Source: Liolophura sinensis
Taxonomy: Eukaryota; Mollusca; Polyplacophora; Chitonida; Chitonidae
DNA: 64,000 nt
Assembly: GCF_032854445.1 (NCBI RefSeq)
Contig: NC_088300.1
Coordinates: 806,001-870,000 of the forward strand
Direction: 5' to 3'
In this document: positions 1-64,000 of the stretch, in pieces
Numbering within the stretch: the stretch's first letter is position 1
Layout: each line of letters starts with the position of its first letter
The notes under the pieces: model-generated
Database searches by the model: none
What the model saw: the letters and a program-made list of their open reading frames with translations, nothing else
Told to the model about the DNA's origin: nothing
Position numbers and translations under genes: made by a program

Positions 1-269
1 TTCTTGTTGATTTAATGGCAAGATCTTAGTACTTGATAATTAGAGGATAATATATGTGTATGACAGTGTCAATCATTCCACTTTTTTTTGGTTTAGCGAT
101 CAGTATTTGAATGTGTCATCACATAACTTCATGCAGTTTTTCAAACTGCTCAGTCAGGCAAGAAACCGGTATTCACTGAATGACTTGTTAATGAAATATT
201 TTGAAAATCAAAAATTGATTTTTTTTTTTATGTACATTGTATTTCATATATTTGTGATTTGTTTGACAG

Positions 270-344
270 GTACGTCAGATGGCAGCTGTCACCCTCAGCG
301 GGCTGTTACACTGTGACTATCTCACCATGGACAAAGACATTTTG
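270..344 (+). CDS. PSME4: PSME4 exon (third from last)
   Basis: 75 nt, phase 0 to 0, after acceptor TTTGACAG and before donor GTAAGT. Encodes 25 residues beginning [11 protein letters not shown] and ending TMDKDIL, part of a C-terminal HEAT-like repeat. Confidence 0.93.
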
Positions 345-2827
345 GTAAGTTGCTGTCATGGTCATCATATTTATCACATGATTTGTATGTTCTTGGAGTT
401 TTAATTCAATAAGTCCCTTTGTTTCCAGTCAGTATTCTTCTTTTTATCATTTCTCTTTAATAGGCATCATATTTCGGGACAAGTTCTCTTATCTTCATCA
501 GTGTCTGTTTATGTCCTCTTTTATTGCACAACTGGATGTAACCGGTCCAAGACATGATATTGGTACTTGTTGCAACAGTCTGACTGGAAATTATCTTGGT
601 GATAAGTACAAAAGATTGACTGCAGCATTAAAACAAATAAACAGAATCAGAAATCAAGTCTTATGCATTAGTCATAATACATTTAAAGGGAAAAAACTCT
701 TCCTGGAATGTTGTTTTTGATGTCCATGCATAACATACCGATGAGCAAATTGAATTATCTTAATAACTGTGGATGATAGCATGAGCTTTATAGCTTTAAA
801 ACTTATGTACAAAAGCCCTCTGATATGACAAACAGCACATTTCTAAGAAGTGTCCTTACTGCTATGCTAATATACAGGGCTTCGCAGTGATTGTACTACA
901 CGCACAATTCTGTTGTAACAACAACGACATGTTGAACTTATTTTGATCCAAATGAGCTGATAATGCAAATTATAGCTGCCTTTAACATGACCACATAATT
1001 TTACATAAGTATACTGTTTTGTGAGGCTCAGTGTTTCTTCATGACACTTTAAGATTGGTGATTCTAGGACAGGAAAAACTTAGAGATAATTTATGCGTCA
1101 CCCGCACTCTTCTTGTCAAAATGTGTCACATGTTAAAAACTATAACAGTATCATGATAAACAACACACGGACATTCATCACATTAAATTCTTCACAAACA
1201 AAAATAAACTTCATGACTAAGTTCCGTGCACAGGACAGTAAATGTCAAGAGAAGATCAGTCTTGTGTATATTGGTTACATGCACACCTGAGATATCAGGT
1301 TACATGATCCATTATTAACAGAGATCATGGTCATTTTGGTCCTTATAATTTCTCCACAGCATCACTTTGAGAAGTTGAGCAGCACGAAGTTGAAGAAGAG
1401 ACAAAGACAGGCACCCCAGGTGATTGCGCCCACTGAGGCGCTGATCAAGCGGCATGCTGGGGTGCTGGGGCTAAGTGCCTGTGTACAAGCTTACCCGTAT
1501 GATGTCCCAGAGTTCATCCCACAGATCCTGATGGATCTGAGTAACCATGTGAATGACCCTCAGCCCATACAGGTAAGTCTGTGTTGTGTTGGCTGAGATC
1601 TACACACCGAGTACTGCTGATTTCTCACCAGATAGTATGGCTAATGTCTATACAGGTGGTGCAGCTGATTTCTATACAGGTGGTATGGCTGATGTCTATA
1701 CAAGTGGTCTTGCTGATATGTATATAGGTGGTATGGCTGATGTCTGTACAGGTGGTCTTGCTGATTTCTATACAGGCAGTGCAGCTGATTTCTCCACAGG
1801 CAGTGCAGCTGATTTCTCCACCGGCAGTGCAGCTGTTTTCTCCACAGGCGGTGCAGCTGTTTTCTCCACAGGCAGTGCAGATGTTTTCTCCACAGGCAGA
1901 GTAGCTGATTTCTGTACAGGTAGTATAGCTGATTTCTGAACAGGTAGTATGGCTGATTTCTGTACAGGTAGTATGGCTGATATCTGTACAGGTAGTATGG
2001 CTGATTTCTGTACAGGTAGTATAGCTGATATCTGTACAGGCAGTATGGCTGATATCTGTACAGGTAGTATAGCTGATATCTGTACAGGTAGTATGGCTGA
2101 TTTCTGTACAGGTAGTATAGCTGATATCTGTACAGGTAGTATGGCTGATTTCTGTACAGGTAGTATAGCTGATATCTGTACAGGTAGTATGGCTGATTTC
2201 TGTACAGGTAGTATAGCTGATATCTGTACAGGTAGTATGGCTGATTTCTGTACAGGCAGTATGGCTGATATCTGTACAGGTAGTATAGCTGATATCTGTA
2301 CAGGTAGTTTGGCTGATTTCTGTACAGGTAGTATAGCTGATTTCTATTTAGCTACATGTTCATACACAATATAGTCACATGTAGGCTGCTGGAAATACTG
2401 GCTAATTTCTTTAGAACTTCCTCCCTGGCCGTATGTGGGAAGGTCTGGCAGCAACCTGCAGACAGTTGTGGCTTTCCCCCACCATATTGCTGGTCGCCGT
2501 CGTATGAGTGAAATATTCTTGAGTACGGCGTAAAACACCAGTCAAATATATAAATAAATAAATTTCTGTAGGACTGATGAGGCAGTTTGAATTGAGCTGG
2601 GTACTGATTATACATGTATATATGCATGTGGCTTTGTATGGAAGTCTATCCTCAGGTGACATATCCCAGCTACAATATTTCTACTGTTGCAGTTAACGGT
2701 GAAGAAAACGCTGTCCAATTTCCGGCGGACTCATCATGATAACTGGCATGATCACAAACAGAAGTTCACAGATGATCAGTTGGTCATCTTGACTGACCTC
2801 CTGGTTTCTCCTAACTACTATGCATAA
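270..2827 (+). CDS. PSME4: Proteasome activator complex subunit 4 (PA200), C-terminal end, 3 exons
   Basis: The last three coding exons are 270-344, 1360-1572 and 2693-2827; all introns are phase 0 with GT-AG ends, and the earlier exons lie left of the window. They encode 140 residues. Recognisable PA200 words are [57 protein letters not shown] and [16 protein letters not shown]. The protein ends in NYYA, the conserved C-terminal YYA tail with which PA200/Blm10 docks in the alpha-ring of the 20S core and opens its gate. PA200 is a nuclear HEAT-repeat activator linked in other animals to acetyl-histone turnover and DNA repair. The gene converges with the nucleoside transporter gene. The second intron holds a 24-bp minisatellite and a SINE remnant. 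The identification is very secure. Confidence 0.95.
1360..1572 (+). CDS. PSME4: PSME4 exon (second from last)
   Basis: 213 nt, phase 0 to 0, after acceptor TCTCCACAG and before donor GTAAGT. Encodes 71 residues from [11 protein letters not shown] through a basic linker (KKRQRQ) to the conserved NDPQPIQ. Confidence 0.95.
1612..2347. repeat. 24-bp minisatellite, about 30 copies, PSME4 last intron
   Basis: The unit contains GTATGGCTGATATCTGTACA, with diverged copies at the left and nearly identical ones at the right. It starts about 40 nt after the donor at 1573. Every unit carries the word TACAG-GTAGT, which resembles both a 3' splice site and a donor. The unit is a multiple of three, so reading frames stay open (TGSMADFC repeats), but this is not a coding region. 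Confidence 0.93.
2415..2565 (+). mobile_element. SINE family 1, 3' part, tRNA-derived type
   Basis: Shares the tail words CGTATGAGTGAAATATTC and GTACGGCGTAAAACACCA with the full copy at 29398, then ends in a TAAA-rich tract. The tRNA-like head is missing. It lies in the last PSME4 intron. Confidence 0.8.
2693..2827 (+). CDS. PSME4: PSME4 last coding exon
   Basis: 135 nt including TAA, after acceptor CTGTTGCAG. Encodes 44 residues from [12 protein letters not shown] to the terminal SPNYYA. The YYA end is the gate-opening tail of this family. Confidence 0.96.
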
Positions 2828-4440: not shown

Positions 4441-4990
4441 CCCTGACCTGGGTTACTGGCGAAGTCTGTGTCAGCTGTCAGAATGGAGCTGGTGGGCTCA
4501 TTGCCAGGCCCTGACCTGGGTTACTGGTGAAGTCTGTGTCAGCTGTCAGAATGGAGCTGGTGGGCTCATTGCCAGGCCCTGACCTGGGTTACTGGCGAAG
4601 TCTGTGTCAGCTGTCAGAATGGAGCTGGTGGGCTCATTGCCAGGCCCTGACCTGGGTTACTGGCGAAGTCTGTGTCAGCTGTCAGAATGGAGCTGGTGGG
4701 CTCATTGCCAGGCCCTGACCTGGGTTACTGGTGAAGTCTGTGTCAGCTGTCAGAATGGAGCTGGTGGGCTCATTGCCAGGCCCTGACCTGGGTTACTGGT
4801 GAAGTCTGTGTCAGCTGTCAGAAAGGTGCTGGTGGGTTCATTTCCAGGCCCTGTTATGGTGCCCTGACCTGGATTACTGGTGAAGTCTTTGTCAGCTGTC
4901 AGAATGGTGCTGGTGGGTTCATTGCCAGGCCCTGTTATGGTGCCCTGACCTGGGTTACTGGTGAAGTCTGTGTCACAGAATGTTGCTGTT
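4441..4990. repeat. 68-bp tandem repeat, about 8 copies
   Basis: Units start with CCCTGACCTGGGTTACTGG at 4441, 4509, 4577, 4645, 4713 and 4781. The last copies carry a short insertion (CTGTTATGGTG) and are more diverged. Intergenic, between the convergent PSME4 and transporter genes. Confidence 0.93.
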
Positions 4991-12300: not shown

Positions 12301-15300
12301 GTTTGCCTCCAGGTTTCATTTTCAGGAGTCTGAAGTTTGATAAAGGGCGTATAGCAGCAAAATTAAAACCGTCTTTGCCAGAGCTGAACATTAACTAGCG
12401 ATAATGATTCGCTATTAAAGGCTGTTTTTTAATAGATCATTATAGTTAATACTCCATGGGGTAATTCACTAGCATTTGTGGGTCACTTAATTTTCTCATT
12501 TCTGGTGGCTGATTTTCGTGGCAAATTTCATGTGACTATTAGTACTCTATCAACAAGTCAAATCAGACTTCATTTTGAACTGCTTATGTTGACTGAATGC
12601 ATTTGTTGACTGAATCATTCATTTTGGAGAGTGAGGATTTCAGGAGAGCTTCAATAATGCACAGAACATTCATCTGGATGCACTAATCAAATTAGTTTCT
12701 AGTACACCTGAAGGGGATTGCGTGTCATTTTTGAAATGTCCTTTACAGGCTGAGAGTGACAACTACATATTCCATAAGCCATTAATGCATGACCATTCTA
12801 TCTTGATTCATGACTACTGAATATTTTTAATAGTGATGTCAATTGCTCATAATGTAAGTTTCAGTCAGTCTAGTCTGATGCTCTAGGTTGTAATCTTTCT
12901 GGGCAGGCCTTCACACATCACTAGACTGGTACCAAGCAATACATGTAACAATAACTGCATTGCGCATCGATTATCAGTTTGCAGTATCAACTAGGAGGCC
13001 AGCTTGAGTTCATGTATAGGCAGTGATAATTAATTTAAAATTGAGGATAGTAAAGAACAAAGATGTTCAATTTTAGTATCTCAAATGGTCGGTCAAATAA
13101 AAAAACCCCTCAACTTCAGCTGCAAGAAAAACTCAATTTCGCCCAGAAAATGGTGTCAATATATGGAAACAATGACTTCTATGCACACCTGCCACTGAGG
13201 ACAGATATGTTGCCCACTGAGAACAGACACACTGCCCACTAAGGACATACACACTGCTCAGCGAAGACAGACACACAGCTCACTGAGGACAGACACACTG
13301 CTCACTGAGGACAGACACACTGCTCACTGAAGACAGACACACTGCTCAGCGAAGACAGACACACAGACACACTGCTCACTGAGGACAGACACACTGCTCA
13401 CTGAAGACAGACATACTGCTCAATGAGGAGAGAAACATTGCTCACTGAGGACAGACACAGTGCCCACTGAGGACAGAAATGCTGCCCAATGAGGACAGAT
13501 ATGATGCCCACTGAGGACAGATATGCTGCCCACTGTCGACAGACACACTGCCCACAGACACACTGCTCACTGAGGACAGACACACTGCCCACTGAGGACA
13601 GATATGCTGCCCAATGAGGACAGATATGATGCCCACTGAGGACAGATGAAATGTGATAGGATATGTTTCTATACTTGGGTAACACCATGTAGACAAAGTG
13701 ACTTACTGTGGGGCCTGCATCATAGCCAATGTGCTGACATAACCATTGGACAAGGCCAACAGGATGATGAAGAGGACAGGTAAGGCATCGTTAGCAAATA
13801 TCACAGGTAGATGTGTCCTTGGGTGAGCGTTACACAGCATCAGTAACGGGATAAGCGCTGTACGGAGAAGAGTCACGCTGACCACACCAACACTGTTCTC
13901 TTTCCTCATCTGTTGGCAAACAGTCACGTACAGCATGTATTCCTGTCACCACAGGGCCATTAAAAAATATATCGCTAAAATACATTCAAGAGGAATGATC
14001 TTTGGTATGAAGGTCTGAAGATCAATGGTTCAAAAATGATTACAAAGCCAACACAACATATTCTACTGTTCACTGTTTCCTCAGCAATGATGATCTGTGA
14101 CAACACTGGTAATGTAAACTCCTATTACAGTATTAATTGTATTACAAAAGAGCAATGGACCCACCTGGCCATTATTTGGGAAAAGTTATTTTTTTTAAAA
14201 TTACAGTAAATCACCAATAATTTCATGGAATTTTTGAACATGATCTATTAAGCTGGGAAACTTGCACCGGCAACCATCCTACCACTCCAGTCCCAGGCAC
14301 TGAATGGACAAAAACACACCAACTTACCAACTGAACTCATCCAGCAGTCATCCTACCATCAACACTCCACTCCTTGGCATTAAATAGTCAAAAACACACC
14401 AACTTACCAAATGAGCCCATCCAGCCACCATCCTATTACTGCATTCCTCAGCACTGAATAAGCAAAAACACGCCAATTTACCAAATGAACTCATCCAGTA
14501 ACCTTCTAACCCCTCCACTCTCTGGAACAGAATAGTCCAAAACACATGAACTTACCAAATGAACCCATCCAGTAACCTTCCTACCCCTCCACTCTCTGGC
14601 ACTGAATAGTCAAAAACACACCAACTTACCAAATGAGCCCATCCAGCCACCATCCTATTACTGCATTCCTCAGCACTGAATAAGCACAAACACACCAATT
14701 TACAAAATGAACTCATCCAGTAACCTTCTAACCCTTCCACTCTCTGGCACTGAATAGTTCTATAACACACCAACTTACCAAATGAACCCATCTAGTAACC
14801 ATCCTAACCCTCCACCTTCTGGTACTGAAGAGGCAAAAACACACCAACTTACCAAATGAACCCATCCAGCAACCATCCTACCCCTCCACTCTCTGGCACT
14901 GAATAGGCAAAAACACACCAACTTACCAAATGAACCCATCCAGTAACCTTCCTACCCCTCCACTCTCTGGCACTGAATAGTCCAAAACACACGAACTTAC
15001 CAAATGAACCCATCCAGTAACCTTCCTACCCCTCCACTCTCTGGCACTGAATAGTCCAAAACACACCAATTTACCAAATGAACCCATCCAGCAACCATCC
15101 TACCCCTCCACTCTCTGGCAATGAATAGGCAAAAACACACCAACTTACCAACTGAACCCATCCAGTAACCATCCTACCCCTCCACTCTCTGGCACTGAAT
15201 AGGCAACAACACACCAACTTACCAAATGAACCCATCCAGCAACCATCCTACCCCTCCACTCTCTGGCAATGAATAGGCAAAAACACACCAACTTACCAAA

Positions 15301-29647: not shown

Positions 29648-29687
<40 letters not shown>

Positions 29688-49400: not shown

Positions 49401-52400
49401 TCAGATGTGAAAATGTTCTTCATTGTTATGATCTTCTGTCTTGGATATCTGGCAGGAAATTGAAATGGTTGATGACAGGTAGCAAGTATCATACTTCAGT
49501 GATACACTTTGGAATTATGTCTTAAGTACCCGTTGATATGCAACTTTTTTGCGTTGGAAATTTTTGTGTTGATGTTTGGATGTCCTTCATTTGTAACGCT
49601 TTGTCACATGATACTTGTTTCTTCTCCAGAACGTGTTACAAATTAGAAATGACATGATAATAAGGAACACAGTGAAGAGACTTCCTGCTCCTATGGTTAT
49701 CCCCCTTGTTAAGGAACTCTCACAGAGAATACAAGGCCATGCTCAAAGGTAAATATGTACATATGGCAATTGGATGAAAACATGAGTACATTTCGAAAAA
49801 ATGCTTTTTATTAAAGAGAAATTTTCCCTCCAAATCATGTCAGCCAGTTTGTTCTTATAGTTCCCTGTGAATTTTTTGCTATGTGTCTGTTAAGGTTGTG
49901 AAAAGCTATTTCTGCAGCTGCATTTGAGAGGCTTGTGTAACTTGCATGAAAATCAGTGTAGAATTATAAAAGGGAAATTTTGGAACAGTTTCACTTCCTG
50001 CTTCAGATGGATTTAGTTATGTATGTATCTGTGTTAATTCTGTATTCTGGTTTGGAAATTACTGAATGAAATACAATCAAGTTAGGTCCATTTTGTGTTC
50101 TCATGTGTACTCAGTAAAAGATGATTGGAAACACATCTGTTTGACAAACTGTACTAATGCAGATTATCTTCATCTGCCCACAAATGATTGGCGTGTCCCA
50201 AACTGTAATAATTCTGACTGCTAAATAAAGTGATGTGTGCGTGTGTTTTGTAGTGGTCACACACTGCTGAAGTGGATCAAGACATTATTGACCATCCACA
50301 CCTCTTATCTCATGACAGTGAGTAACATTTTGTCACATGGTATTTGATTGCTTTGATCATGTCAACTGCTGAAAATGGTGAGAGATATGAATTTAGTTGG
50401 TTTTTTAAATGGGATATATGAATTTCTCACTAGTGTCAAACGTGCTGGCAGTTGTCGGGTTGAAACTATGTTACAAAGGATTACAGTCCACTTTTAAAAG
50501 TATTCCTGCTGACAGATGTAAAGAGAATTCATTACATGATCAAGGCAGTAATGTTGAAATACTTAGTGCCAGACTGACAAGGTCAAAGTTTCACCAGTTT
50601 TTAACGGATGAGACTGCCGATGATGTGAGCTCAAATTTAAGATTTACAGTTTGTTTCTGAAAATTGCCTGTTTCCTGATTTTACTGTCATAATTAAGTTG
50701 CCTCGTGCCAGTGACTATGTTGACGCTTACACAATGTAATTGACTGAAGGTGTATGATACAAGGTCGTGTTTTATGTGTGTACAGTTTCCCGAGCTGGTG
50801 GACAAGTTCAGTGGGATGTATGAGATGATGACGAGTCGGGTGACCATGTTCTCTAACCTGTCACGGCTTCAGGGAAAACTTAACCTAGTTCTCTCACAGG
50901 TAAATACTTCAGGCGTCTCACCACTGAGTATGAGAATCACAGAATACATGCCTTAGTGCCACCTGGGGCCTGCTGTTTAAGGTGTTTGTGGGTACTTGAC
51001 AACGTCAGATCATGAACTGGTGTGTCCCATCTTCCGTCAGCCTGACTGTCATTATGTAATTGAAGTAATCTTCAAGGGCACAAAACACCACCAAAAAAAT
51101 TACAAATTCCTGATGTGAGGGTCTCGTAGCTTATTGATATAACAAGGATGTAGACTTCCATCTGTGCTACTGTAATATTTGAATTGATTCATGTAACACA
51201 GTAGCATGAAGGATTTGCCAAGTTGTCCCCAGTAGGTCCAATGTTGATATACTGTGGAAATGTGAGGCAAGGCTTCATGGTTGATCTCTTTGATGTGACA
51301 GTCCAGTGGAGACTACTACAAGTAGCCCCTCTGACAGGACCAGCATAAGACTAGAGCCCAAATAAACGAACAACACAACTTAAGGGGTCAACTCTATCCA
51401 GAGTGAATCCCAACTGTTGAACTGGCTGTAGTTTGGTTTTGTTGTGGTTGGTTTCCAGTCTGGTAATGTTTCAGTTGTGGTTGGTTTCCAGTCTGGTAAT
51501 GTTTCAGTTGTGGTTGGTTTCAAGTCTGGTAATGTTTCAGATCAAATCCCAGGATCAGGAAGGAGAAGACACGACAACACAACAGGCTCTTCTCGTCTAT
51601 GAGGATAGTAAGTGCACATTCTCTGCATTCAGGTTCACAGCTTGTGTGGGACCTCTGTGGCCGAGGGGGCCAGCACGTTGCAGTCACCCAGGAGCCTTTC
51701 ACCTATGTGGACGCAGCTCATACTGGCTTCCTCTCCAGCCGTGTGGGGGAAGCTCTGCCTGCAACCTGTGGATGGTCGTGGGCTTCCTCCTGGCTCTGCC
51801 AATTTCCTCCCACCATTTTGCTGGCCGCTGCTGTATAAGTGAAATATTCTTGAGTATGGCGTAATACACCAGTCAGATAAATGAATCACAACTTGTGCTT
51901 CGAAAGGAGATAAAACGGGGAAAAAAAGCAAACTGTCATAGGAGTCACCAGTAGGCTGTCAGGGTGGCCCTGGTGTGTCCTACTTGCAATAGCTCCTGTT
52001 ACAGTTGGCTTAAAAGATCTTTTTGGTGACTGAAAGCAAATAGGTGCAACTGGGAGCATACGATCAGACACTTTTTAATCACCAACAACTGCTGCTCGTA
52101 GTTGAATATGTTCTACTTTTCTGAGACTTGCAGCATCCAGTTGTACCCAGTTGCGTCGATCTACGCGTGTTTACCTTCCAGTGATGCATCACGTGTTCAT
52201 CATATGCGTGAGATACACTATGAAAATGGCGACCACCAAGGAGACCCATGAGGCAGAAAATAAGTCATCAATATTTGGAGGCTTAGCCTGAACTTGTATG
52301 ACCTCTCTTGGAAGGCACAGATAAAGCATATGATATACATTGTTATGAAAGAGAGGGCTACAATTAGAACAAATTGTTATGTTTGTCTATCTTTTCACTG

Positions 52401-53890
52401 AATAGGGGTATAAAGTGAAAATTTGAACATTAGGACAAGAAAATTTTCCAAGAAACCTTAAAATTTCGAAAGGAGAGACAGCTTAGGTATATTAGACATT
52501 GTATCAATGACCATGTACAAGAGCCCACCATCATAAACAGGTCACATGATGTCACGTTGCTAAGTATCTGCTCACAGTTGCCAGTCGTACGTGCACCGAA
52601 TCTCATCAGAAGCTGCCAGTTGCTCACAATCGTAAGGTTTTGTCAAACTTTTTGACGTAAGTTCAACTGTGTTGAGTTGTACCCAGTTGCTTACGATCAC
52701 AAGTGGACCTACGCTCTGCTTTAAATACTTGCATACATTAAACAAAAGTTACTGCTCATCTGCAGATTGTTGACTTTTGGCCAATAATCAATTTTCATTC
52801 AAGACATTCATTACTCACTGGAGATAATCGGTTGCATGCTGTTGTTGTTGTAGATTCCTCAGATGATGAGGGTGAAGTCATTACTCACTGGAGATAATCG
52901 GTTGCATGCTGTTGTTGTTGTAGATTCCTCAGATGATGAGGGTGAAGTCATTACTCACTGGAGATAATCGGTTGCATGCTGTTGTTGTAGATTCCTCAGA
53001 TGATGAGGGTGAAGTCATTACTCACTGGAGATAATCGGTTGCATGCTGTTGTTGTTGTAGATTCCTCAGATGATGAGGGTGAAGTCATTACTCACTGGAG
53101 ATAATCGGTTGCATGCTGTTGTTGTTGTAGATTCCTCAGATGATGAGGGTGAAGTAGCGCTTGATGACCTGATGGCCATTCATTCAGAATCTGAGGTAAG
53201 CCTCACAAGGTTTTTACAAAAGTTCACTGCTGTTTATCCAGTGTTTATTTCCTGGCTCTTCTTCATCTCTGTTCTATATACATGTTTTGTTGAGCATGTC
53301 CTTGAACACCGGTGTACACTATATGACGTAAAATTTTGCCCACAAAGTTCATTTTTAGAGGCAAATAAATGTGGGGAAATATTATTTCTGGTGCTGAGAC
53401 TTTTCCAGGTGAATATCATTCTGTGCCCCATGCAATCCTCAAAACTTTTTCTAAACTCAAATAGAACTCATTTGAGTTAGTCATGGACGAAAACTGAAAT
53501 AGAACTCATTTGAGTTAGTCATGGACGAAATTTTTGATCATTTAGTGTATTTATGATTTGGTTAGGTGGGGGTGGGGTGGGGCGGGGGCGGGGGGCGAAG
53601 TAGTAACTGTTTTTTCTGCTTATCTTGCATCAGTGTGGAACCTGGTATCTCTACCTTTAGGTCATGGTTGTGCAAGTTCATATTCAAATCCATTCTCATC
53701 ACCGTCTGTAGGAAAACAAAGTTACTGGACTTGGCACAATTCTTGGATTGTATCCCAGTTGGTCTTAGTTGGTATACTCAAGATAACTAACTTCTGGTTC
53801 TCACAGGATAACTGGGAGGACCTGTCTGATATGGAAGCTGTAGATGGCGGTGACGATAATGGCAAAGACATGGAGGAGGAGGATGACTGA
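34260..53890 (+). CDS. WDR43: WD repeat-containing protein 43 (UTP5), 17 coding exons
   Basis: Exons: 34260-34445, 36156-36296, 36689-36810, 37128-37242, 37722-37858, 38090-38192, 39390-39454, 39864-40035, 41001-41084, 44966-45094, 49255-49392, 49630-49748, 50254-50317, 50786-50899, 51541-51607, 53131-53195, 53807-53890. Every phase fits, giving 634 residues (human about 677). Residues 1-350 form the WD40 propeller (IKIWETETG, CSNDHHITQWDV, SAGRSIKLWNLSTK). Residues 420-565 match the Utp12 domain (ALLLTQGLQSQD, RLPAPMVIPLVKEL, GHTLLKWIKTLLT). The tail is acidic (DSSDDEGEVALDDL, EEEDD). A basic stretch follows exon 1. WDR43 acts in the nucleolus in the t-UTP part of the SSU processome, in pre-rRNA transcription and 18S processing. 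ATG at 34260 is followed by a second ATG; either could start. Introns are swollen by minisatellites. Confidence 0.96.
34446..35549. other. WDR43 intron 1, unique part
   Basis: No feature recognised. Downstream, 35915-36075 has two very decayed stretches resembling SINE family 1 tails. Confidence 0.35.
35550..35725 (+). mobile_element. SINE family 2, diverged copy, WDR43 intron 1
   Basis: tRNA-like head (ACACTTGGTAGATTGTCC, B-box-like CAGGGTCAATCCTGGGTG) followed by GAAGTTGCAACGTGCTTGCC, parallel to the antisense copy at 9425. Confidence 0.6.
36156..36296 (+). CDS. WDR43: WDR43 exon 2 (basic linker, WD40)
   Basis: 141 nt, phase 0 to 0. Begins with the basic run ESPRKK, then DLIALGTTSGAVLLYSYLNG. 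The basic cluster matches the human position and is a likely nuclear localisation signal. Confidence 0.94.
36689..36810 (+). CDS. WDR43: WDR43 exon 3 (WD40)
   Basis: 122 nt, phase 0 to 2. Encodes ADRINDVCWSPDGEDVFACS and DHHITQWDVSSTKVK. Its donor CA-GTGAGTGC is followed by two further copies of itself. Confidence 0.94.
36804..36892 (+). repeat. WDR43: Triplicated donor of WDR43 exon 3
   Basis: Three tandem units of about 28-33 bp contain AAACAGTGAGTGCTTTGCTA or a close variant, so the exon 3 5' splice site is present three times. Only the first is contiguous with the exon. The second copy has an extra GT before GAGT (CAGTAGTGAGTGC). Confidence 0.82.
37128..37242 (+). CDS. WDR43: WDR43 exon 4 (WD40)
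   Basis: 115 nt, phase 2 to 0, after acceptor TTGTTTTCAG. Encodes KWKADKGIVHSVCCSHQYL and SAGRSIKLWNLSTKTVVQ. Confidence 0.94.
37722..37858 (+). CDS. WDR43: WDR43 exon 5 (WD40)
   Basis: 137 nt, phase 0 to 2, after acceptor GTCATTTCAG. Encodes TFTGHSTEVFRLL and SSYFLSAALNDRLINVW. Confidence 0.94.
38090..38192 (+). CDS. WDR43: WDR43 exon 6
   Basis: 103 nt, phase 2 to 0. Encodes AVASFTLPDEPCMLDLSRSS, matching human SFTVTDEPVYIDLT. Donor GTAAGT. Confidence 0.93.
38265..38605. repeat. 57-bp tandem repeat, 6 copies, WDR43 intron 6
   Basis: The unit contains CCTGTTCATATTTCTCTCTG and GATTTTGATGTTTGCTGTC. It begins about 75 nt after the exon 6 donor. 57 is a multiple of three, so the frame stays open. 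Confidence 0.92.
38645..39345. repeat. 22-bp tandem repeat, about 32 copies, WDR43 intron 6
   Basis: The unit is built on GGTGATCAGTATTGACTGGT, with GGGTAA and ATAGACT variants. It ends about 45 nt before the exon 7 acceptor, so this intron is mostly two arrays. Confidence 0.94.
39390..39454 (+). CDS. WDR43: WDR43 exon 7
   Basis: 65 nt, phase 0 to 2, after acceptor TTGTTTACAG. Encodes PILLAVVTRGGQLLIFEHIL; human has [20 protein letters not shown]. Confidence 0.94.
39864..40035 (+). CDS. WDR43: WDR43 exon 8
   Basis: 172 nt, phase 2 to 0, after acceptor TTTGTTTCAG. Encodes LKRPLQAKFTIQCATLGDKD, then PMTILAAALVKG and LLAYGSFLKPTFEKV. The donor GTCAGT is weak but fits the phase of exon 9. Confidence 0.92.
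40604..40690. repeat. 21-bp tandem repeat, 4 copies, WDR43 intron 8
   Basis: The unit CAGTCTGTACACCACATGCA plus one base is nearly perfect across four copies. A decayed SINE tail follows. Confidence 0.9.
40735..40845 (+). mobile_element. SINE family 1, decayed tail
   Basis: Retains TGAAATATTCTTGTGTAAGG and an AATAAATAC end. Strongly diverged from the full copy. Confidence 0.5.
41001..41084 (+). CDS. WDR43: WDR43 exon 9
   Basis: 84 nt, phase 0 to 0. Encodes VCNGQSDICLVREDSLSGAV then KVESSLSK, at the end of the second propeller. An array begins 25 nt after its donor. Confidence 0.88.
41110..41830. repeat. 40/42-bp tandem repeat, about 17 copies, WDR43 intron 9
   Basis: The unit contains CTGTCATTTCATCACACCTT and CATGGCCCATGCAAA. 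It starts about 25 nt downstream of the exon 9 donor. Confidence 0.93.
41994..44670. repeat. 34-bp tandem repeat, about 79 copies (largest array), WDR43 intron 9
   Basis: The unit contains GTGCACAAACATTGGCATAG and TGGACATGATA. Point variants alternate (CATGATAG, CATGATGG, CATCATGG). The 34-bp unit is not a multiple of three, yet no unit holds a minus-strand stop, so minus-strand frames of up to 536 codons are open. These are not proteins. Confidence 0.96.
44966..45094 (+). CDS. WDR43: WDR43 exon 10
   Basis: 129 nt, phase 0 to 0. Encodes VSKEVTELAPGVLVPSRPTQ and SAKRKKRKPSASE, a basic linker between propeller and Utp12 domain. Donor GTAAGT. Confidence 0.92.
45105..45925. repeat. 44-bp tandem repeat, about 19 copies, WDR43 intron 10
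   Basis: The unit contains CTGCCCTCAAGAGTGTAGTA and TGCTGTTATAGGAACTACTG. It begins about 10 nt after the exon 10 donor. Each unit ends in an acceptor-like GTTATAG or GTTACAG. Confidence 0.94.
45926..47464. other. WDR43 intron 10, unique part
   Basis: Unique sequence with no exon or repeat recognised, up to the THAP-like fragment. Confidence 0.4.
47465..47835 (-). pseudogene. THAP-domain protein fragment, frameshifted at a poly-A tract, antisense in WDR43 intron 10
   Basis: On the minus strand the ATG at 47835 opens MSRLYVAARCYNSTADSVHL, then LLKWPNDEKAAK. After a 24-nt A run (plus-strand T, 47723-47746) the next frame continues KWTKSVKNTQVWNGPSKW and LLLCSAHFQADGFEELNS, stopping at 47467-47465. 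This order (C, LxKWP, W, LCSxHF, F) is the THAP zinc finger. The first Cys of the C2CH set is replaced (YVAAR where CVAAG is usual). The A run breaks the frame, though a homopolymer length error could equally explain that. THAP domains bind DNA and derive from P-element transposases. It may be a decayed nested gene or a domesticated or retroposed fragment; no partner domain follows. Confidence 0.7.
47836..49254. other. WDR43 intron 10, 3' part
   Basis: Contains a poly-A tract (48119-48140) and otherwise unique sequence. No exon recognised until the exon 11 acceptor. Confidence 0.4.
49255..49392 (+). CDS. WDR43: WDR43 exon 11 (Utp12 domain start)
   Basis: 138 nt, phase 0 to 0. Encodes MEDRLNAISIDQ and ADALALLLTQGLQSQDKLIV; human has IEERLGAMDID and FPVLLTQGLES. 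A tandem acceptor (TTAGCAG) would allow an extra Gln. Confidence 0.95.
49630..49748 (+). CDS. WDR43: WDR43 exon 12 (Utp12)
   Basis: 119 nt, phase 0 to 2. Encodes NVLQIRNDMIIRNTVKRLPA, then PMVIPLVKELSQRIQGHAQ. Confidence 0.95.
50254..50317 (+). CDS. WDR43: WDR43 exon 13 (Utp12)
   Basis: 64 nt, phase 2 to 0. Encodes GHTLLKWIKTLLTIHTSYLM, matching human MVQWLKCVLTVHASYL. Confidence 0.95.
50786..50899 (+). CDS. WDR43: WDR43 exon 14 (Utp12 end)
   Basis: 114 nt, phase 0 to 0. Encodes FPELVDKFSGMYEMMTSRVT and SRLQGKLNLVLSQ, matching human LMESRVKTFQKL and HGKLILLITQV. Confidence 0.95.
51442..51540 (+). repeat. WDR43: 33-bp repeat, 3 copies, carrying the exon 15 acceptor
   Basis: The unit contains GGTTTCCAGTCTGGTAATGT and ends TTTCAG, so the acceptor of WDR43 exon 15 occurs three times. 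Only the last (51540) is joined to coding sequence. Confidence 0.85.
51541..51607 (+). CDS. WDR43: WDR43 exon 15
   Basis: 67 nt, phase 0 to 1. Encodes IKSQDQEGEDTTTQQALLVY then ED; human has KAKLVYEEE here. Confidence 0.9.
51640..51892 (+). mobile_element. SINE family 1, near full length, WDR43 intron 15
   Basis: Head GGGACCTCTGTGGCCGAG, centre GCTCATACTGGCTTCCTCTC, tail GTGAAATATTCTTGAGTATG followed by AGATAAATGAATC. It begins about 30 nt after the exon 15 donor. Confidence 0.82.
51893..52805. other. WDR43 intron 15, unique part
   Basis: The word GTTGTACCCAGTTGC occurs twice (about 52140 and 52675), hinting at an old element, but I could not define ends. Confidence 0.35.
52806..53154 (+). 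repeat. WDR43: 70-bp tandem repeat, 5 copies, carrying the exon 16 acceptor and first 24 nt
   Basis: Acceptor TTGTTGTAG followed by ATTCCTCAGATGATGAGGGT occurs with exon-like starts at 52854, 52924, 52991, 53061 and 53131. Units are almost identical; one lacks a GTT. Only the last continues into the exon 16 body. The others run on into CATTACTCACTGGAGATAAT, which stops in the exon frame. Confidence 0.95.
53131..53195 (+). CDS. WDR43: WDR43 exon 16 (acidic tail)
   Basis: 65 nt, phase 1 to 0, donor GTAAGC. Encodes SSDDEGEVALDDLMAIHSES. The fifth and last of the repeated acceptors. Confidence 0.9.
53325..53545. repeat. Dispersed repeat, copy B, with an internal tandem duplication
   Basis: Same family as 17205-17410. 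Its 3' end contains AATAGAACTCATTTGAGTTA twice in tandem (about 53459 and 53498). Confidence 0.65.
53566..53596 (+). other. G-quadruplex-prone G tract, WDR43 last intron
   Basis: Six or so runs of three to six G separated by single T or C bases on the coding strand, in the last intron, about 210 nt before exon 17. Confidence 0.6.
53807..53890 (+). CDS. WDR43: WDR43 exon 17 (C-terminus)
   Basis: 84 nt including TGA, after acceptor TTCTCACAG. Encodes DNWEDLSDMEAVDGGDDNGK then DMEEEDD; human has EDNWDEDEEE. Confidence 0.94.
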   Translation, partial: DNWEDLSDMEAVDGGDDNGKDMEEEDD

Positions 53891-57580: not shown

Positions 57581-57908
57581 GTGTTACTGACTGTATTTCA
57601 TGCTACACATCTCCGGCTACCCTATTTCTGCAACCTTGAGGAACAACTTTCAATGCAGTTGTGATTATGGTGTTTATACTGAGTAAGTAAGCCTACACAA
57701 GGACTTCACACGGAGTATAATTACATATGTCAGTTCAGGCAGAGTAATGATCTCAACATATGCTTAGAACACCAGGTGAACGTGTGCTATGGTTAAAAAA
57801 AAGGTACATTAAATTTCTCACAGATGATGTGGAAGCACACAACATAAAATTACCAACAGGTACATGTGAGCGAAAAACTCAAATAATGGTGAGTACATGC
57901 ATGTCCTA

Positions 57909-58109
57909 TCATTCAAGCTTACTGAAGGCAAAATTTGCTAGTTTAGAGTTTGTAGACTGTGACAGAGGGTTCTTTGTCTTCTCTGCTGTTTCTGTAGTTT
58001 TTGACTTCTTCTGTGAGACTTCCTGTGGTGTGAGACATGGTTCAGCGTGTCTCTTTCGCTTTTTATCTGTGTCACTTTCTACTTCACCACGGGACTTCTT
58101 CAGCCAAAC
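57909..58109 (-). CDS. WDHD1: WDHD1 last coding exon
   Basis: 201 nt, phase 0. Encodes the end of the HMG box (VWLKKSRGEVESD), a KKRKR basic cluster, and the C-terminus SKLANFAFSKLE, stop TGA. Confidence 0.94.
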   Translation of the reverse strand, partial: VWLKKSRGEVESDTDKKRKRHAEPCLTPQEVSQKKSKTTETAEKTKNPLSQSTNSKLANFAFSKLE

Positions 58110-61100
58110 CTGTCAATATAAATCCATCAGATCTAATATTATTACCCGTTTCAGACAGAACAAAAACTGCAGCACATATCCATTGAGCAATAGTAAGACT
58201 TGACCCTGTGCTTTGATATTCTAATGTCCGCCTAAAACAGTAGTTGTTACCTCAGAGCCAGTCCAACACAGATCTGTCTGTAACATAGCTTCAGATGTAA
58301 CACAGATTTTGTCATTCTGGTTACTTGATGATGATGTCTGACAATCTAGCCACCATATTTATAGTATTGCCTGCTATGCCATGTCAATGTCACCAAATAT
58401 ACATATAATGGGACACCAAATCCCAGTATACTGACCGCAGACCGAGTGTCAAGACAGGTAAGTATCAAGAATGTGAAGATAGATTAGAACAGCCTGCTTG
58501 TACAAAACTGGTTTGAGATTTAACTTTAAGCCAACTTGTTAATTTTTCACCTAGCTGAAACGAAATTGTGTACTAGTACATTAAATATGAACTAAAACTG
58601 CTGCTCTTATACTTTGACTTTGAAGAAAGGCATTGGCTGCTGAGTTTGGGTACAATTTTAAGTATAAAATATGACTTAATACCAGTATTGGCGTTTTCAA
58701 ACAACTGGGCCCATGTCTCTAACAAGATTTATCACATAAACTATGTGCACAAGGGCTTATTTTAGAAAACTAAACATTCACTGTGATACAATAAATTTCT
58801 GCAGTCTACCTGTCGTTCCTCCTTTGGCAACTCCCTGAACTTCTCTGCAGCCATGGTTTGCAGCTCCTCTGCTGACAGCTCAGGGTGTTCCTCGGAGATG
58901 TCAGTCTGGTTCTCCTGAAACCACAGCTGATAAGCTGTCCTGCAGAATGAGGAGACAAACAATGTATGAACATACACATAATAACAATAATAATGTCTTT
59001 ATTTATCGAAGGTAGCTGGGTCAATTTACAATGAAACAGTTGTTCCCCAAGGCCTTCACAGACAACATACAGAAAAAAATGTAGTTTAGAGTCCAATCAA
59101 AAATATAGATCAATATATATAAAACAAGATAAAGCATCATGTAGTAACATAAGTAGAATGAACAACTCAGAATAGCACAGAACAGACACAATGAACATGA
59201 ACTGAAGGAAACTCAAGACACAGTGATTACAAGTCTGGAAATAGGTGCCTGGTATTTTTGAGAACACCCCTTCAGAGAAAGTGGGAGAAAGAAACAACAG
59301 TATTCAGTTATCTTAATTCCATCTGGTTATGTATTCACTCAAGCATGACAACAGGTTCTTGTTTATACAGTTTTAAACCAGCACTATGGAAAATGTGGGC
59401 ACATTGTCCATGTTATATAATACTAAAACAATCTTACTTTATAGTAAGTAAGGATAGTAGACCATGGACAATGGGGGCCCGCTTTAGAGACCATGGATAA
59501 TGTGGGCCCACTATAGAGACCATGGACAATGGGGGCCCGCTTTAGAGACCATGGATAATGTGGGCCACTATAGAGACCATGGACAATGGGGGCCCGCTTT
59601 AGAGACCATGGATAATGTGGGCCCACTATAGAGACCATGGACAATGGGGGCCCGCTTTAGAGACCATGGATAATGTGGGCCCACTATAGAGACCATGGAC
59701 AATGGGGGCCCACAACAGGAACATATAACCATGAACATGTAACCAGGAACACTCCAACTTTACTGACACTCCTTTTAACTCTGGGTGAATTTTCTCAAAT
59801 CAACAATAATGAAAGATTAGCAGGACAGATTGGCAGAAAGAACTGAGATGAACAGTCCAAATTATTTATCTATCTGCTGTTCAATGCCAGTCTCCAGAAT
59901 TCTTCCTTGATATGACGTCAGACACCTTTACAGGCTGATCAAATCAACGTGTCTGCACTCACTTTTTCTTCCCGGCTTCTATGGTATCACCGTTTTCTGT
60001 GGGTTTCTTATTTTCAGATGACTTTGTGGATTTGGCCTTGAACAGTTTTATTTGTGATGAAGCCTGCAGAGTACAAAGTAAAACATTCATAACAAATGCA
60101 GTTTCAAACTTAACCAGATTTATTCTATTCTTTATTCTCAATTTTAATCAGAGTAACATTTGGAAAATACTGATTCTCCATTATATCTTGATTTGCAACA
60201 TCCTTGAAAAAAGAAAGAGTAAAACCACACTTTTGATCTGATTCCAATGTACCCACTTTTTTCTTTGAATCGCTCACAGTCAATGGTAAGGTAGGACTTT
60301 TCAAGGTTTTCTTCTCCTTTGCCATGTCATCAAAGACTTTGGATCCTTTGACAACTGTGTGTGTCTTCTGAGGTGTGGACACCTGAAAAAGGCAATAAAG
60401 CAAAGTCTGACATCCATTCTGCTCCTAGGATTCTCAAAGTTCTCTTGTCATCACTTCTACAATGTTTAAAAACTTGTCATAAACACTGATAAACTTTCAG
60501 GTCTTGTAGAATATTTTTCAAGAAATTTCTTCCAAAAGCCTCACCTTCAGTGCATGTGTGAAGTGGAGCTGATGATATTGACGGTGATGTGACCTATCGT
60601 AAATGGGTTTTTCCTGAATAAGGAGGCAGCAGTAGGCTCTGAGGGCTTACTCACGGCCACTTTGGCAGTGAGACTGAGATTACCTACCTTAAATGGGTTT
60701 TTCCTGAATAAGGAGGAAGCAGTAGGCTCAGGGCTTACTCACGGTCACTTTGGCAGTGAGACTGAGATTACCTACCTTAAATGGGTTTTTCCTGAGTAAG
60801 GAGGCAGCAATAGGCTCTGAGGGCTTACTCTCGGCCACTTTGGCAGTGAGACTGAGATTACCTAAATTAAATGGGTTTTTCCTGAGTAAGGAGGCAGCAG
60901 TAGGCTCTGAGGGCTTACTCTCGGCCACTTTGGCAGTGAGACTGAGATTACCTACCTTAAATGGGTTTTTCCTGAGTAAGGAGGCAGCAGTAGGCTCTGA
61001 GGGCTTACTCTCGGCCACTTTGGCAGTGAGATTGAGACGAGGACCTTAAATGTAAATGTGAACAGAAATAAGACATAGTCACACAATTATTCCCAGGGCT

Positions 61101-63562
61101 ATATATCAATATGACTAGTTCATGCTCTATTTATCACATTTTCAGATAACAGTTTGGGCACATTCACCAATGGGTAATTTTCAGAATATAGGAACAAATG
61201 TTGTAGTTGTTGTCTGACCTGTTGTTTCCTCAGTTTGATCCTCTTGCTCCATGTCTTCCTCTGCCTCGTCTTCACTTACTCCTCCCTCCTCCTCCTCTTG
61301 GCCAATCAGACCTCGCTTTGTAGTAGGCCTTCTGTGGCCATTCCAGCCACTCCTCCCAACAGCCTCAGGCCGGCCACTCCTGTTAAGTGAAATATGAATA
61401 TCCATGTTCTGTTGACTGGTACACTTCTGTCATGAAACATCATTTTACTCACTTTAGGCCATTAAATTTAGATGGCTTTGTAAATTTCAGATACTGGTTT
61501 TAGTGATCAATAATAATTAATGAAGGCAAAAAAAAAAATATTTTTGGCCAATTCTTAAGAATACATCATACATATGTGCTGGTACGGAAGACATCAGTCA
61601 GCTTTGTGTCAGACCGAACTCCTGACTTCTATTTCATACAAACTTTATGGTATAATTTGCGTCAATGCAGAAAATTTTTGCATATATATTCAAAGAAAAA
61701 AGATAGACTATTCTCCCACCTGCCAGGAACATTTTGCTCTGTATTCAAGAGTTAATGTTTTGCTCACCTTATGCTAGGAGCAGTGAGGTAATCCTCTTCC
61801 TGGTTTTCAGGTGTTTCCTCCTCTGCCTTGCGCCTAGCAACGTCACTGATGCGCTCTGCTAGCTGCATACGGCGCAGACGACTGGCGTACTTGATGGCTA
61901 GCTGTAGTGTGTGCTGATCAGGCATCATCTCACAAACTTCCACAGCTCTACACTCACGGTCTGAGCGAGCAGACAGCTGAAAACAGTAACGCAGCCCAAT
62001 CACACAAACTTCTACAGCTCTACACTCACAGACCAATCACACAAACTTCTACAGCTCTACACTCACAGCCCAACCACACAAACTTCTACAGCTCTACACT
62101 CACGGACCAATCACACAAACTTCTACAGCTCTACACTCAGGGTCTGAGCGAGCAGACAGCTGAACACAGTAACGCAGCCCAATCACACAAACTTCTACAG
62201 CTCTACACTCACAGCCCAATCACACAAACTTCTACAGCTCTACACTCAGGGTCTGAGCGAGCAGACGGCTGAAAACAGTAACACAGCCCAATCACACAAA
62301 CTTCTACAGCTCTAAACTCACAGCCCAATCACACAAACTTCTACAGCTCTACACTCACAGCCCAATCACACAGACTTCTACAGCTCTACACTCACGGTCT
62401 GAGCGAGTAGACAGCTGAAAACAGTAACGCAGACCAATCACACAAACTTCTACAGCTCTACACCGACAGTCTGCAGCAAGAATTTTACTGTAATCATCAG
62501 CCAGTTATTTATTTCAATATTAATATAATTAACGTTTGAATCACTACAATTTGAACACAATCTTCTACACTTTGCTACACTTTAAGCATAATGTGCTACA
62601 CTTTGAGCACAACCTGCCAGATTGTTTCACTACCAGAATTAGAAAAGACCACAGTCAAGTACAGCTTTTTTCCCACATGGATTGATAACCATAAAAATAC
62701 ATCTTACTGCAAACAATTTCATCAGAGCTTCCTGAGCTGGTTTCAGCATTTCAATCTTAACACTGTCATCCACTTCATACCCCTGGGTTTCCAGTACACT
62801 GAGATGGTTTGAGAGAAGCCGACTCCGGAGCAGTGTCTCCTGAAAAGAGGAAGGAGAAGAAGAAATGACGGATTGTATCAAACGCATCACAACATTCATA
62901 ACAGTCATCTGAATGGGACGAAATTGGTCTGTCCATTGAAATAAAAACTCAATTTCTGCTTATATTTATTGAATTTGTGTTTAAATGAAATATTTAGAAT
63001 TATACAAAACCTCAATTTGGACATCTATATAATCCAACAAAGCAATCTGTGCAAATTTTGGCTATTTATTACATCTGTATCGTCTAGTCTAACAAATCTC
63101 TGTCAGTTGTAAAAACATTATCTTTTACCCTATCCAAAGTGGACAAAAAATGATGTTTATGTATACTGTATCAGTGTATTTGTGTATTGGTCAAAACAAC
63201 CTTCAGTGCATGTTCATCTTTACAGAGGTACTTTTCAACCAAGTCAGTATTTGCCTCTATTAAACAGACAAGCTGTGGTCTTGTCTATATCACAACAGAT
63301 TCTTCTGGAGTATAGTGTAATCTTACACCAATAACAGACCAGACTATCTGTCATGTAATGTCACCAAAATAAAACAAATAACTATGGTAAAGGCCTTCAC
63401 CAGGTCATCAAATGAACACGTGTATTGATAAAGGGAGGTAATCTCACCTCGTACTGACTCTTCTCCGTGCTGAGTTCACACAGAGGCAGCTGGTAAGGCA
63501 GTACTGACACCATGGGGCGGGGTAAGGTCGGGGGGAACTTGGAACCCTTACACATGATACAC
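57909..63562 (-). CDS. WDHD1: WD repeat and HMG-box DNA-binding protein 1 (AND-1/CTF4), C-terminal nine exons
   Basis: Exons in transcript order: 63562-63448, 62839-62708, 61976-61768, 61379-61219, 61044-60956, 60382-60257, 60063-59963, 58939-58810, 58109-57909 (stop). The phases agree and give 420 residues; the N-terminal WD40 part lies right of the window. Domains: the SepB region (GSKFPPTLPRPMVSV, MKLFA, LAIKYASRLRRMQLAERI), an acidic linker, basic linkers with KNPFK, one HMG box (TAYQLWFQENQTDISEEHPE, ELPKEERQVWLKKS), and a C-terminal KLANFAF motif (human LSAFAF). WDHD1 trimerises and links the CMG helicase to DNA polymerase alpha at replication forks. It converges with WDR43. Two exons lie at the edge of tandem arrays containing their own splice sites. 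Confidence 0.95.
58810..58939 (-). CDS. WDHD1: WDHD1 exon, HMG box
   Basis: 130 nt, phase 2 to 0, after acceptor TCATTCTGCAG. Encodes TAYQLWFQENQTDISEEHPE and the second helix to ELPKEERQ. Confidence 0.95.
59455..59712. repeat. 58-bp tandem repeat, about 4.5 copies, WDHD1 intron
   Basis: The unit contains ACCATGGACAATGGGGGCCC and ACCATGGATAATGTGGGCCC, two half-units of 29 bp. GGGCCC palindromes recur. Confidence 0.92.
59963..60063 (-). CDS. WDHD1: WDHD1 exon, basic linker before the HMG box
   Basis: 101 nt, phase 0 to 2. Encodes ASSQIKLFKAKSTKSSENKK and ends AGKKK. Lys-rich. Confidence 0.9.
60257..60382 (-). CDS. WDHD1: WDHD1 exon, linker
   Basis: Starts after TTTTTCAG and encodes VSTPQKTHTVVKGSKVFDDM to VSDSKKK with donor GTGGGT. 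A stronger-looking donor GTGAGC 21 nt earlier (exon end 60278) keeps the same phase, so the 3' end is uncertain. Confidence 0.8.
60600..61044 (-). repeat. WDHD1: 90-bp tandem array, 5 copies of a WDHD1 exon with its donor
   Basis: Units start about 90 bp apart (donor-like sites near 60955, 60865, 60775, 60687). Read through, the unit is in frame: KNPFKVGNLSLTAKVAESKP repeats for three copies until TGA in the fourth, which has a 2-nt deletion. In one copy the donor GTAGGT has become TTTAGGTAA. The two downstream copies gain a GTGAGT where the others read GAGAGT. Confidence 0.9.
60956..61044 (-). CDS. WDHD1: WDHD1 exon with KNPFK, seed of a 90-bp array
   Basis: 89 nt, phase 1 to 0, after acceptor ACATTTAAG. 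Encodes PRLNLTAKVAESKPSEPTAA then SLLRKNPFK, donor GTAGGT. Upstream-most of five tandem copies. Confidence 0.85.
61219..61379 (-). CDS. WDHD1: WDHD1 exon, acidic linker
   Basis: 161 nt, phase 2 to 1. Encodes SGRPEAVGRSGWNGHRRPTT, then EEEEGGVSEDEAEEDMEQED and EETTG. Donor GTCAGA is weak but in phase. Confidence 0.88.
61768..61976 (-). CDS. WDHD1: WDHD1 exon, helical part of the SepB region
   Basis: 209 nt, phase 0 to 2, after acceptor ACTGTTTTCAG. Encodes LSARSDRECRAVEVCEMMPD and LAIKYASRLRRMQLAERISD. Human has REFRC and LAIKYASRSRK. Confidence 0.94.
61977..62470 (-). repeat. WDHD1: Compound tandem array carrying the acceptor and first ~45 nt of a WDHD1 exon
   Basis: Plus-strand words ACTTCTACAGCTCTACACTC and GTCTGAGCGAGCAGACAGCT recur. 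Besides the true exon start (61976), acceptor-plus-exon copies begin at about 62159, 62268 and 62414 on the minus strand. Between them are 37-bp sub-repeats of the exon start (AGCTGTAGAAGTTTGTGTG). Confidence 0.85.
62708..62839 (-). CDS. WDHD1: WDHD1 exon, SepB region
   Basis: 132 nt, phase 0 to 0. Encodes ETLLRSRLLSNHLSVLETQG through EMLKPAQEALMKLFA; human has MRSVIFSNHH and LLMKLFA. Confidence 0.95.
62905..63120. mobile_element. Partial copy related to the element at 11835
   Basis: Shares, with substitutions, GTCCATTGAAATAAAAACTC and ACCTCAATTTGGACAT with 11870-11970. No inverted ends recognised. Confidence 0.45.
63448..63562 (-). CDS. WDHD1: WDHD1 exon, SepB region (most 5' in window)
   Basis: 115 nt, phase 2 to 0, after acceptor TTGTGTACAG. 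Encodes CIMCKGSKFPPTLPRPMVSV and LPLCELSTEKSQYE; human has CKGSRFPPTLPRP. Confidence 0.95.
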
Positions 63563-63939
63563 CTGTACACAAAACACAGGATATTTTAGAGGCAACTCCT
63601 GGTAATTTACCAACCATAGAGAAACAGAGGAAACAACAAGGAATATCCAATGTTCTTCATCTCAAACAATTTAATCTTTACAATGAATTCTAAAATTTAA
63701 GTTCAGTGCCTCATTTTATTTTCTATCTTGTGACTCAAAATTTGCATTGATCAGAATAAAGAAAAATGTTGCAAGGAATGATATTCTTTAAGGCTTGATT
63801 TACATGTAACTGGGAGGACCAGCAGCATCAACAAAAACTACCAGAGCAGGGATATGAAACGGAAAGATTTCCCACATAGAACTCCTTACCCTTATCCCTC
63901 CAGCACTGCTCAGTACGTTAACAGCAACCTTACACCACA
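63563..63939. other. WDHD1 intron at right edge
   Basis: No further exon recognised up to the window end. Confidence 0.4.
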
Positions 63940-64000
63940 ACATTGTTGTCTGTTGTCACCACAACATTGTTGTCTGTTGTCACCACAACATTGTTGTCTG
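63935..64000. repeat. 24-bp tandem repeat, cut by window end
   Basis: The unit contains CACCACAACATTGTTGTCTG; three copies are visible. Confidence 0.85.

Follow-up and report, generated by a model that had tools for sequence, protein, structure and literature searches.

Minisatellites that span exon-intron boundaries in genes of the chiton Liolophura sinensis

In genes of the chiton Liolophura sinensis, minisatellite arrays often contain a splice junction of their host gene within the repeat unit. We examined a stretch of 64,000 nucleotides on contig NC_088300.1 (positions 806,001 to 870,000 of assembly GCF_032854445.1), referred to herein as the window, which holds exons of PSME4, of an equilibrative nucleoside transporter gene (ENT), of WDR43 and of WDHD1, together with further loci of the same assembly. 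Arrays that contain a junction are real and common and occur beyond the window as well; of the intronic arrays in the genes sampled, about 30% (18/61) straddle a junction. Judged by the anatomy seen in the sequence, these arrays are mirages of the kind described in amphioxus, and they were probably born by local tandem duplication of a stretch that included an exon-intron boundary, followed by growth.

Splice junctions within tandem arrays

To model the genes of the window, we combined a small splice-site and codon model with PDB sequence matches and homology, which gave three C-terminal exons of PSME4 (+), 12 exons of ENT (-), 16 of WDR43 (+) and nine of WDHD1 (-). Tandem Repeats Finder (TRF) yielded 33 merged minisatellite arrays that cover 33% of the window, the longest being 2.7 kb. 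Arrays make up 43.5% of the intron bases (19041/43763) and seldom enter exons (285/4684 bases). Eight of the 76 identified junctions lie inside or abut arrays, and seven arrays are concerned (Table 1). These are the seven that an earlier reading of the letters without database searches, the sequence-only reading, had named as holding a junction, and all 7/7 were confirmed by TRF with exons placed by homology and splice signals. That reading had spread the phenomenon over four unrelated genes. Within the window it involves three (ENT, WDR43 and WDHD1), and PSME4 becomes the fourth through two junction arrays located just upstream (L031). Exon numbers in quotation marks are those of the sequence-only reading, which equal ours plus one for WDR43 and the late ENT exons; either numbering may hold.

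The 103-bp unit at ENT exon 6 comprises the entire 86-nt exon and 17 nt of intron, with GT intact in 17/17 copies and AG in 17/18. A pattern match retrieved 14 exon copies; 12 have the exact length of 86 nt, two of which contain a stop, and GTAGGTGT follows each copy. GT is also intact in 28/28 copies of the ENT 'exon 11' array and in 24/24 and 18/18 copies of two further junction arrays, but the G of GT survives in just 3/5 copies at WDHD1 exon 5. The WDR43 array at 51441-51540 has the acceptor AG as its final two bases and contains zero exon bases. Junction arrays carry the authentic junction in the copy at one edge, and the remaining copies are on the intron side; the arrays do multiply splice-like sites, as the sequence-only reading had claimed. 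The WDHD1 exon 5 units (window 60592-61044) are 90 nt each, a multiple of three, and the frame is open across the first three copies. Use of the copied donors could thus extend the protein without a frameshift and would add 30-residue repeats.

Table 1. Junction-containing arrays, their exons and other arrays (window positions)
Feature	Position	Strand	Description
ENT exon 6, authentic first copy	25148..25233	-	86 nt; homology to ENT1, AG/GT borders
ENT exon 6 array	23433..25236	-	Unit 103 bp, ~17 copies; acceptor and donor both inside (TRF)
ENT exon ('exon 11')	16391..16476	-	Coding; donor at 16391
ENT 'exon 11' array	14365..16426	-	Unit 74 bp, ~28 copies; 36 nt of exon and donor
WDR43 'exon 3' array	36805..36891	+	Unit 31 bp, 2.8 copies; donor 36810 inside
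WDR43 'exon 15' array	51441..51540	+	Unit 33 bp, 3 copies; acceptor at 51541
WDR43 'exon 16' array	52808..53155	+	Unit 70 bp, 5 copies; acceptor 53131 and 25 nt of exon
WDHD1 acceptor array	61927..62471	-	Periods 37 and 109; acceptor 61976 and 50 nt of exon
WDHD1 donor (exon 5) array	60592..61037	-	Unit 90 bp, 5 copies; donor 60956 and most of exon
PSME4 array	1616..2345	+	24-bp unit, 30 copies; 43 nt after donor 1572; not straddling
WDR43 'exon 6' array	38271..38605	+	57-bp unit; 78 nt after donor 38192; not straddling
WDR43 'exon 9' array	41141..41827	+	40-bp unit; 56 nt after donor 41084; not straddling
WDR43 'exon 10' array	45110..45925	+	44-bp unit; 15 nt after donor 45094; not straddling
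ENT 'exon 12' array	13184..13646	-	22-bp unit; 60 nt after donor 13707; not straddling
ENT intronic array	17950..20277	-	72-bp unit; not straddling

Outside the window we sampled WD40 genes, in the form of 26 loci of ten kilobases, each surrounding one of the best distinct WD40 matches in the assembly and picked without regard to repeats, and added L031, chosen as the window's neighbor, whose exons match PSME4. The 26 loci are taken from the first 28 distinct WD40 places; two that lay less than 60 kb from a chosen one were passed over. Arrays cover 9.7% of the 26 loci overall (0 to 61% per locus), so the window is repeat-rich but not alone. Scoring covered 24 of the 33 window arrays (two were joined across an insertion resembling a short interspersed nuclear element (SINE), and eight lie outside introns between identified exons) and 32 of the 52 sample arrays (two joins; 18 not flanked on both sides by identified exons). 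A junction is straddled by 9/32 scored sample arrays (L006, L012, L017, L019, L020, L022, L026, L029 and L030) and by 2/5 arrays of L031. In ENT and in L006 the unit takes in an entire small exon together with its acceptor and donor.

Some of these calls depend on how straddling is defined. Under a strict rule, by which the TRF interval itself must cross the junction, the sample gives 7/32. L022 was counted by its diverged founder copy and L019 2627-3046 by sequence; both are excluded from the strict count, and the latter from conservation profiling as well. L005 5119-5544 starts right after a donor GT and was scored as non-straddling. One border lies a few bases off AG or GT in 4/27 curated sample introns. 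Small exons are perhaps hidden in some sample introns, in which case the chance expectation given below would be too low.

A WDR61-like gene in L019 contains at least two copies of one 22-nt exon (SSSDKTVK), at 2194-2215 and 2715-2736, each with acceptor and donor; they lie ~520 bases apart, one of them within a 185-bp array. In L008 (1913-2101), a katanin p80-like gene, an ab initio model places two near-identical exons (AMGWGDVSDIAMAQDQ) ~90 bases apart where TRF reports no array, perhaps a two-copy junction duplication.

Placement and origin of the arrays

We compared these counts with a founder-unit null, in which a unit of length u falls at random in an intron of pre-expansion length L and straddles a junction with probability 2(u-1)/(L+u-1). 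Since the introns concerned are short and the units long, this probability is not small. The null predicts 3.84 straddling arrays in the window, where 7/24 are found (P=0.065), and 6.14 in the sample, where 9/32 are found (P=0.12). Window, sample and L031 together give 18/61 against 11.24 expected (P=0.015), that is, 30% observed and ~18% (11.2/61) expected; with a unit of 109 instead of 37 for the WDHD1 acceptor array, the expectation becomes 11.44 (P=0.017). Leaving out the window, which had been reported for the feature, 11/37 straddle against 7.40 expected (P=0.079). The strict count over all loci is 16/61 (P=0.065), or 15 (P=0.135) if the WDR43 51441 array, which holds the AG only, is also removed. 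Uniform coverage was rejected as a null; it predicts more junction hits than observed because exon bodies exclude arrays. Shifting whole arrays gave results that vary with the exon overlap allowed, and the founder-unit null was therefore preferred.

The sequence-only reading had judged the junction arrays too frequent for chance and had ascribed them to amplification tied to exon-intron boundaries. The first part of this claim is weakly supported and depends on the null, with the excess reaching P=0.015 overall and P=0.065 in the window. The second part is not required, as ~11 of the 18 would follow from random placement, unit edges are not phase-locked to the junction, and donors are hit about as often as acceptors. 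We regard junction-tied seeding, by R-loops at donors or slippage at AG|GT motifs, as unlikely. The straddling excess favors it. So do the non-straddling arrays, of which 10/40 begin at most 79 nt from a donor where 6.35 are expected (P=0.077), and just 4/40 lie within the same distance of an acceptor, although this acceptor-side scarcity may reflect branch-point constraint. The L031 array of 10-base period at 6073-6150, non-straddling, is in the 61-array count and not in the donor test. Arrays starting close to a donor had also been listed by the sequence-only reading, about correctly for PSME4, WDR43 'exon 6' and 'exon 10' and ENT 'exon 12', but WDR43 'exon 9' lies 56 nt from its donor and not 25. 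The acceptor and donor of WDHD1 exon 5 have CATTTAAGGT in common (read by eye), which could have primed a duplication. On the other side, among 13 one-sided arrays the exonic fraction of the founder unit appears evenly distributed (mean 0.43, Kolmogorov-Smirnov P=0.41; the exon share of L022 and the period of 109 for the WDHD1 acceptor array were set by hand), with no phase lock between unit edges and junction. The 16 straddling arrays of window and sample affect seven donors, six acceptors and, in three cases, both, which leaves no donor bias among the one-sided ones, and the excess beyond the window has P=0.08.

In the account that we favor, an array would be founded when a short stretch of the gene that by chance contained an exon-intron boundary was duplicated in tandem, and slippage or unequal exchange would then expand the duplicated unit. 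The outermost junction, that is, the first donor or the last acceptor, would still give normal mRNA, so that extra copies would be tolerated. Duplications that straddle a junction would expand roughly as readily as those confined to the intron, and duplications inside exons would be removed. A junction-specific amplifier would be unnecessary, though a modest excess is unexplained.

Several points weigh against this account of random duplication and tolerance. The overall count lies above the null, which means that placing founders at random does not explain all of it. The null itself depends on an estimated pre-expansion intron length; with present-day lengths, the window expectation drops to 1.77 and P to 0.0008, and whole-array placement in the window gives anything from P <0.00001 (no exon overlap) to 0.30 (90 nt allowed). 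Normal mRNA is presumed to be spliced at the authentic junction. In addition, in pooled data, copied donor cores differ from the unit consensus at 24/720 positions (3.3%) compared with 8.7% in random windows (P=0.003; 10 arrays including L031), a difference not foreseen if the copies were purely neutral. On balance, about three fifths of the junction arrays would be explained by local duplication at random places, and the residual ~1.6-fold excess could hide a weak junction effect.

Four arrays were searched at the DNA level against the assembly with a program that skips very common words. Both junction arrays among them, ENT exon 6 and ENT 'exon 11', occur at one place only (2/2), which fits growth in place without proving it, given the skipped words, and the near-donor WDR43 array at 45110-45925 is likewise found once. 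The non-straddling array at 17950-20277 has diverged relatives, 67-84% identical, on other scaffolds. Those relatives, and a SINE-like element that splits a 39-bp array, would suit descent from a dispersed repeat or transposon that landed near exons. We consider such descent very improbable, in view of the single-place arrays (within the limit of that search) and of the junction units, most of which hold some of the host exon's own sequence; for units made of the host exon it is refuted. The element in question carries a poly-A tract and lies at ~29398-29684, and further SINE-like stretches at 26791-26851 and 21257-21316 recur in introns and mislead exon prediction.

An assembly artefact, with collapsed or duplicated haplotypes written out as tandem copies, is hardly credible. 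It could draw on a contig of the same assembly that resembles a mitochondrial concatemer, but the units within 15 profiled arrays differ by 1-18% on average, and the mean read is longer than the longest window array. According to the accessible part of its description, the assembly was first published as Liolophura japonica, with 632 scaffolds, 609.5 Mb and PacBio HiFi reads of mean length 8,347 bp at 14-fold coverage (PMC11068029), a label later corrected to L. sinensis (PMC12441733). The version examined here has 609,464,459 bases in 632 contigs, and the window arrays are present in it; the sequence-only reading had stated that their absence from long-read assemblies would refute its claim.

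Other features of the assembly were noted in passing. The contig mentioned above (C99, 108,685 bases, loci L001 and L002) has seven COX1 matches ~15.5 kb apart on one strand and is apparently a head-to-tail mitochondrial concatemer. The mitochondrial gene order of the assembly is COX1-COX2-ATP6 on one strand and ND5-ND4-ND4L-Cytb-ND6-ND1 on the other, with COX3-ND3-ND2 before COX1, the arrangement of chitons and some other molluscs; amphioxus, considered at first as the source in view of its mirages, was rejected partly on this ground. A search for the GFP family was negative, but gave no signal in the controls either. Both the window (33% arrays; at 0.8 Mb of an 82.5-Mb scaffold) and L019 (C2:1080301-1090300; 61% arrays; at 1.1 Mb of 28.4 Mb) are situated close to the end of a scaffold. 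The published repeat table, in the part available, gives 0.08% for the class of simple repeats, microsatellites and RNA (PMC11068029), compared with 9.7% minisatellite in the sampled genic loci and 33% in the window; chiton minisatellites may be counted there as unclassified, or be unmasked.

Decay of copied splice sites

To follow the fate of the copies, repeat units from 15 junction arrays were aligned about their consensus, and mismatches in the splice core were set against those in windows drawn at random from these units, leaving the authentic copy out of the counts. The splice core shows 34 mismatches in 912 positions (3.7%) against 8.1% expected (P=0.0046), and P=0.006 against windows free of CpG. 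Separated by site, donors are conserved (P=0.004, 9 arrays), and acceptor copies show no significant conservation (P=0.29, 7 arrays). With L031 included, the donor 9-mer has 41/1080 mismatches (P=0.00025). The dip is narrow: 16 mismatches against 30.2 expected at positions -3 to -1 (ratio 0.53), 24 where 60.3 would be expected over the six bases that open the intron (ratio 0.40), and ratios of 0.87-1.12 in the flanks on both sides. The L031 array, fetched after the first test, has 0/36 donor mismatches against a unit mean of 6.2%. Dropping any single array leaves the donor P at 0.0025-0.016. In our exploratory analysis of pooled data, copied donor cores seem to decay less than half as fast as the rest of the unit, and this is unexplained.

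No such dip appeared at comparable sites. In the same arrays, antisense donors gave 70 mismatches against 76.0 expected and other sense donor-like sites 117 against 75.8. The best donor-like sites in 25 other arrays gave ratios of 1.13 (sense) and 0.97 (antisense), and in the 9/25 with a donor-like score of at least 4 per strand the ratios were 1.2 and 1.03; acceptor-like sites in other arrays gave 1.09 and 1.37. Exon sequence within the copies shows no conservation (ratio 1.08), which would be anticipated if the copies go unused, and neither does the copied intron part (1.05). Past conservation at the authentic position was rejected as sole cause, given the exon ratio, and a general protection of donor-like sequence by U1 or by mutation rate is unsupported, given the unconserved donor-like sites of other arrays.

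These results raise the possibility, which we hold with more doubt than confidence, that selection keeps the copied donors, either because they bind the U1 small nuclear ribonucleoprotein and define the upstream exon or because they are used as alternative donors. Such selection can hold together with a neutral origin of the arrays. It would suit the low mismatch of the donor core and 9-mer, the sharp dip beside flat or higher controls and a freely drifting exon part, and the later-added L031. Against it, five or six arrays of high copy number supply most of the signal; when every array counts equally, P rises to 0.07 over the full set of 16 sites, or to 0.028 if the test is confined to the nine sites with at least six further copies. 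The lower-copy arrays of WDHD1 (both), L020 and L022 show no conservation of the splice core, the fifth intron base is not conserved (12 mismatches against 10.1 expected), and acceptors show no significant conservation. Strong decoy donors would also be expected often to damage splicing. Finally, the donor-dip hypothesis came from the data, and several tests were tried afterwards. Given the equal-weight values, the exceptions and this origin, we offer donor conservation as a lead and not as proof of function; it seems new, modest and testable.

Carried further, and tentatively, a junction array might serve as a lasting store of 5' splice sites, whose copies selection preserves throughout the life of the array while the copied exon drifts freely. 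If so, the array would be a tandem landing strip for U1 that defines the exon or offers interchangeable donors, and the twelve 86-nt copies of ENT exon 6 would be interchangeable, mutually exclusive exons. Most of those copies are 17 nt apart, presumably too short a gap for splicing from one copy to the next.

Relation to known systems and significance

The sequence-only reading knew of no described system of this form. Minisatellites spanning exon-intron boundaries are in fact known in amphioxus as "mirages" (PMC3087553, PMC3902484). As far as the accessible parts of these reports go, mirages occur in the globin genes BflGb6 and BflGb9, with Adh3 and other loci cited; splicing is regular despite many copies with AG/GT, haplotypes differ in length, arrays are somatically unstable, and a route to intron gain was proposed (PMC3087553). 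PGBD5 and troponin C were added later (PMC3902484). The chiton arrays resemble the mirages described in those parts in that tandem units span exon-intron boundaries, at donors or acceptors, and in that many, though not all, copies keep AG/GT (28/28 and 17/17, but 3/5 at WDHD1 exon 5). Unlike amphioxus mirages, they are found in a mollusc and not a cephalochordate, in many genes of a small sample, and in ENT and L006 they copy whole small exons with both splice sites. Their units measure 31-141 bp, with up to ~28 copies (15 arrays profiled). Donor-site conservation was measured in the chiton; we met no such measurement for amphioxus in the available parts of the two reports (PMC3087553, PMC3902484).

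A related proposal is the Rogers model of intron gain by tandem genomic duplication, as cited in the accessible part of the amphioxus work (PMC3087553). As in that model, so far as it is set out there, a duplicated stretch carrying AG|GT yields extra splice sites in the chiton; unlike in the model, the extra copies lie inside existing introns. A study of potato RdRp is said to be a case of intron gain by tandem genomic duplication. Within molluscs, intron 3 of an abalone TSSK1-like gene holds a length-variable array with a 27-bp unit, an intronic minisatellite as in the chiton but, in the part of the report available, with no stated splice junction in the unit (PMC6905558). Among the literature matches listed, we recognized no report of junction-spanning minisatellites in molluscs or chitons.

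Taken together, these observations extend junction-spanning minisatellites from amphioxus to Mollusca and provide both a rate (~30%) and a null model with which the majority agree. Arrays of this kind supply many copies of one donor per transcript, so that the decay of the donor can be compared with that of exon and intron within the same unit, and whether decoy splice sites matter becomes a measurable question. Should the donor dip be borne out across the genome, copied 5' splice sites would not be inert, with consequences for exon definition and for the gain of introns through tandem duplication.

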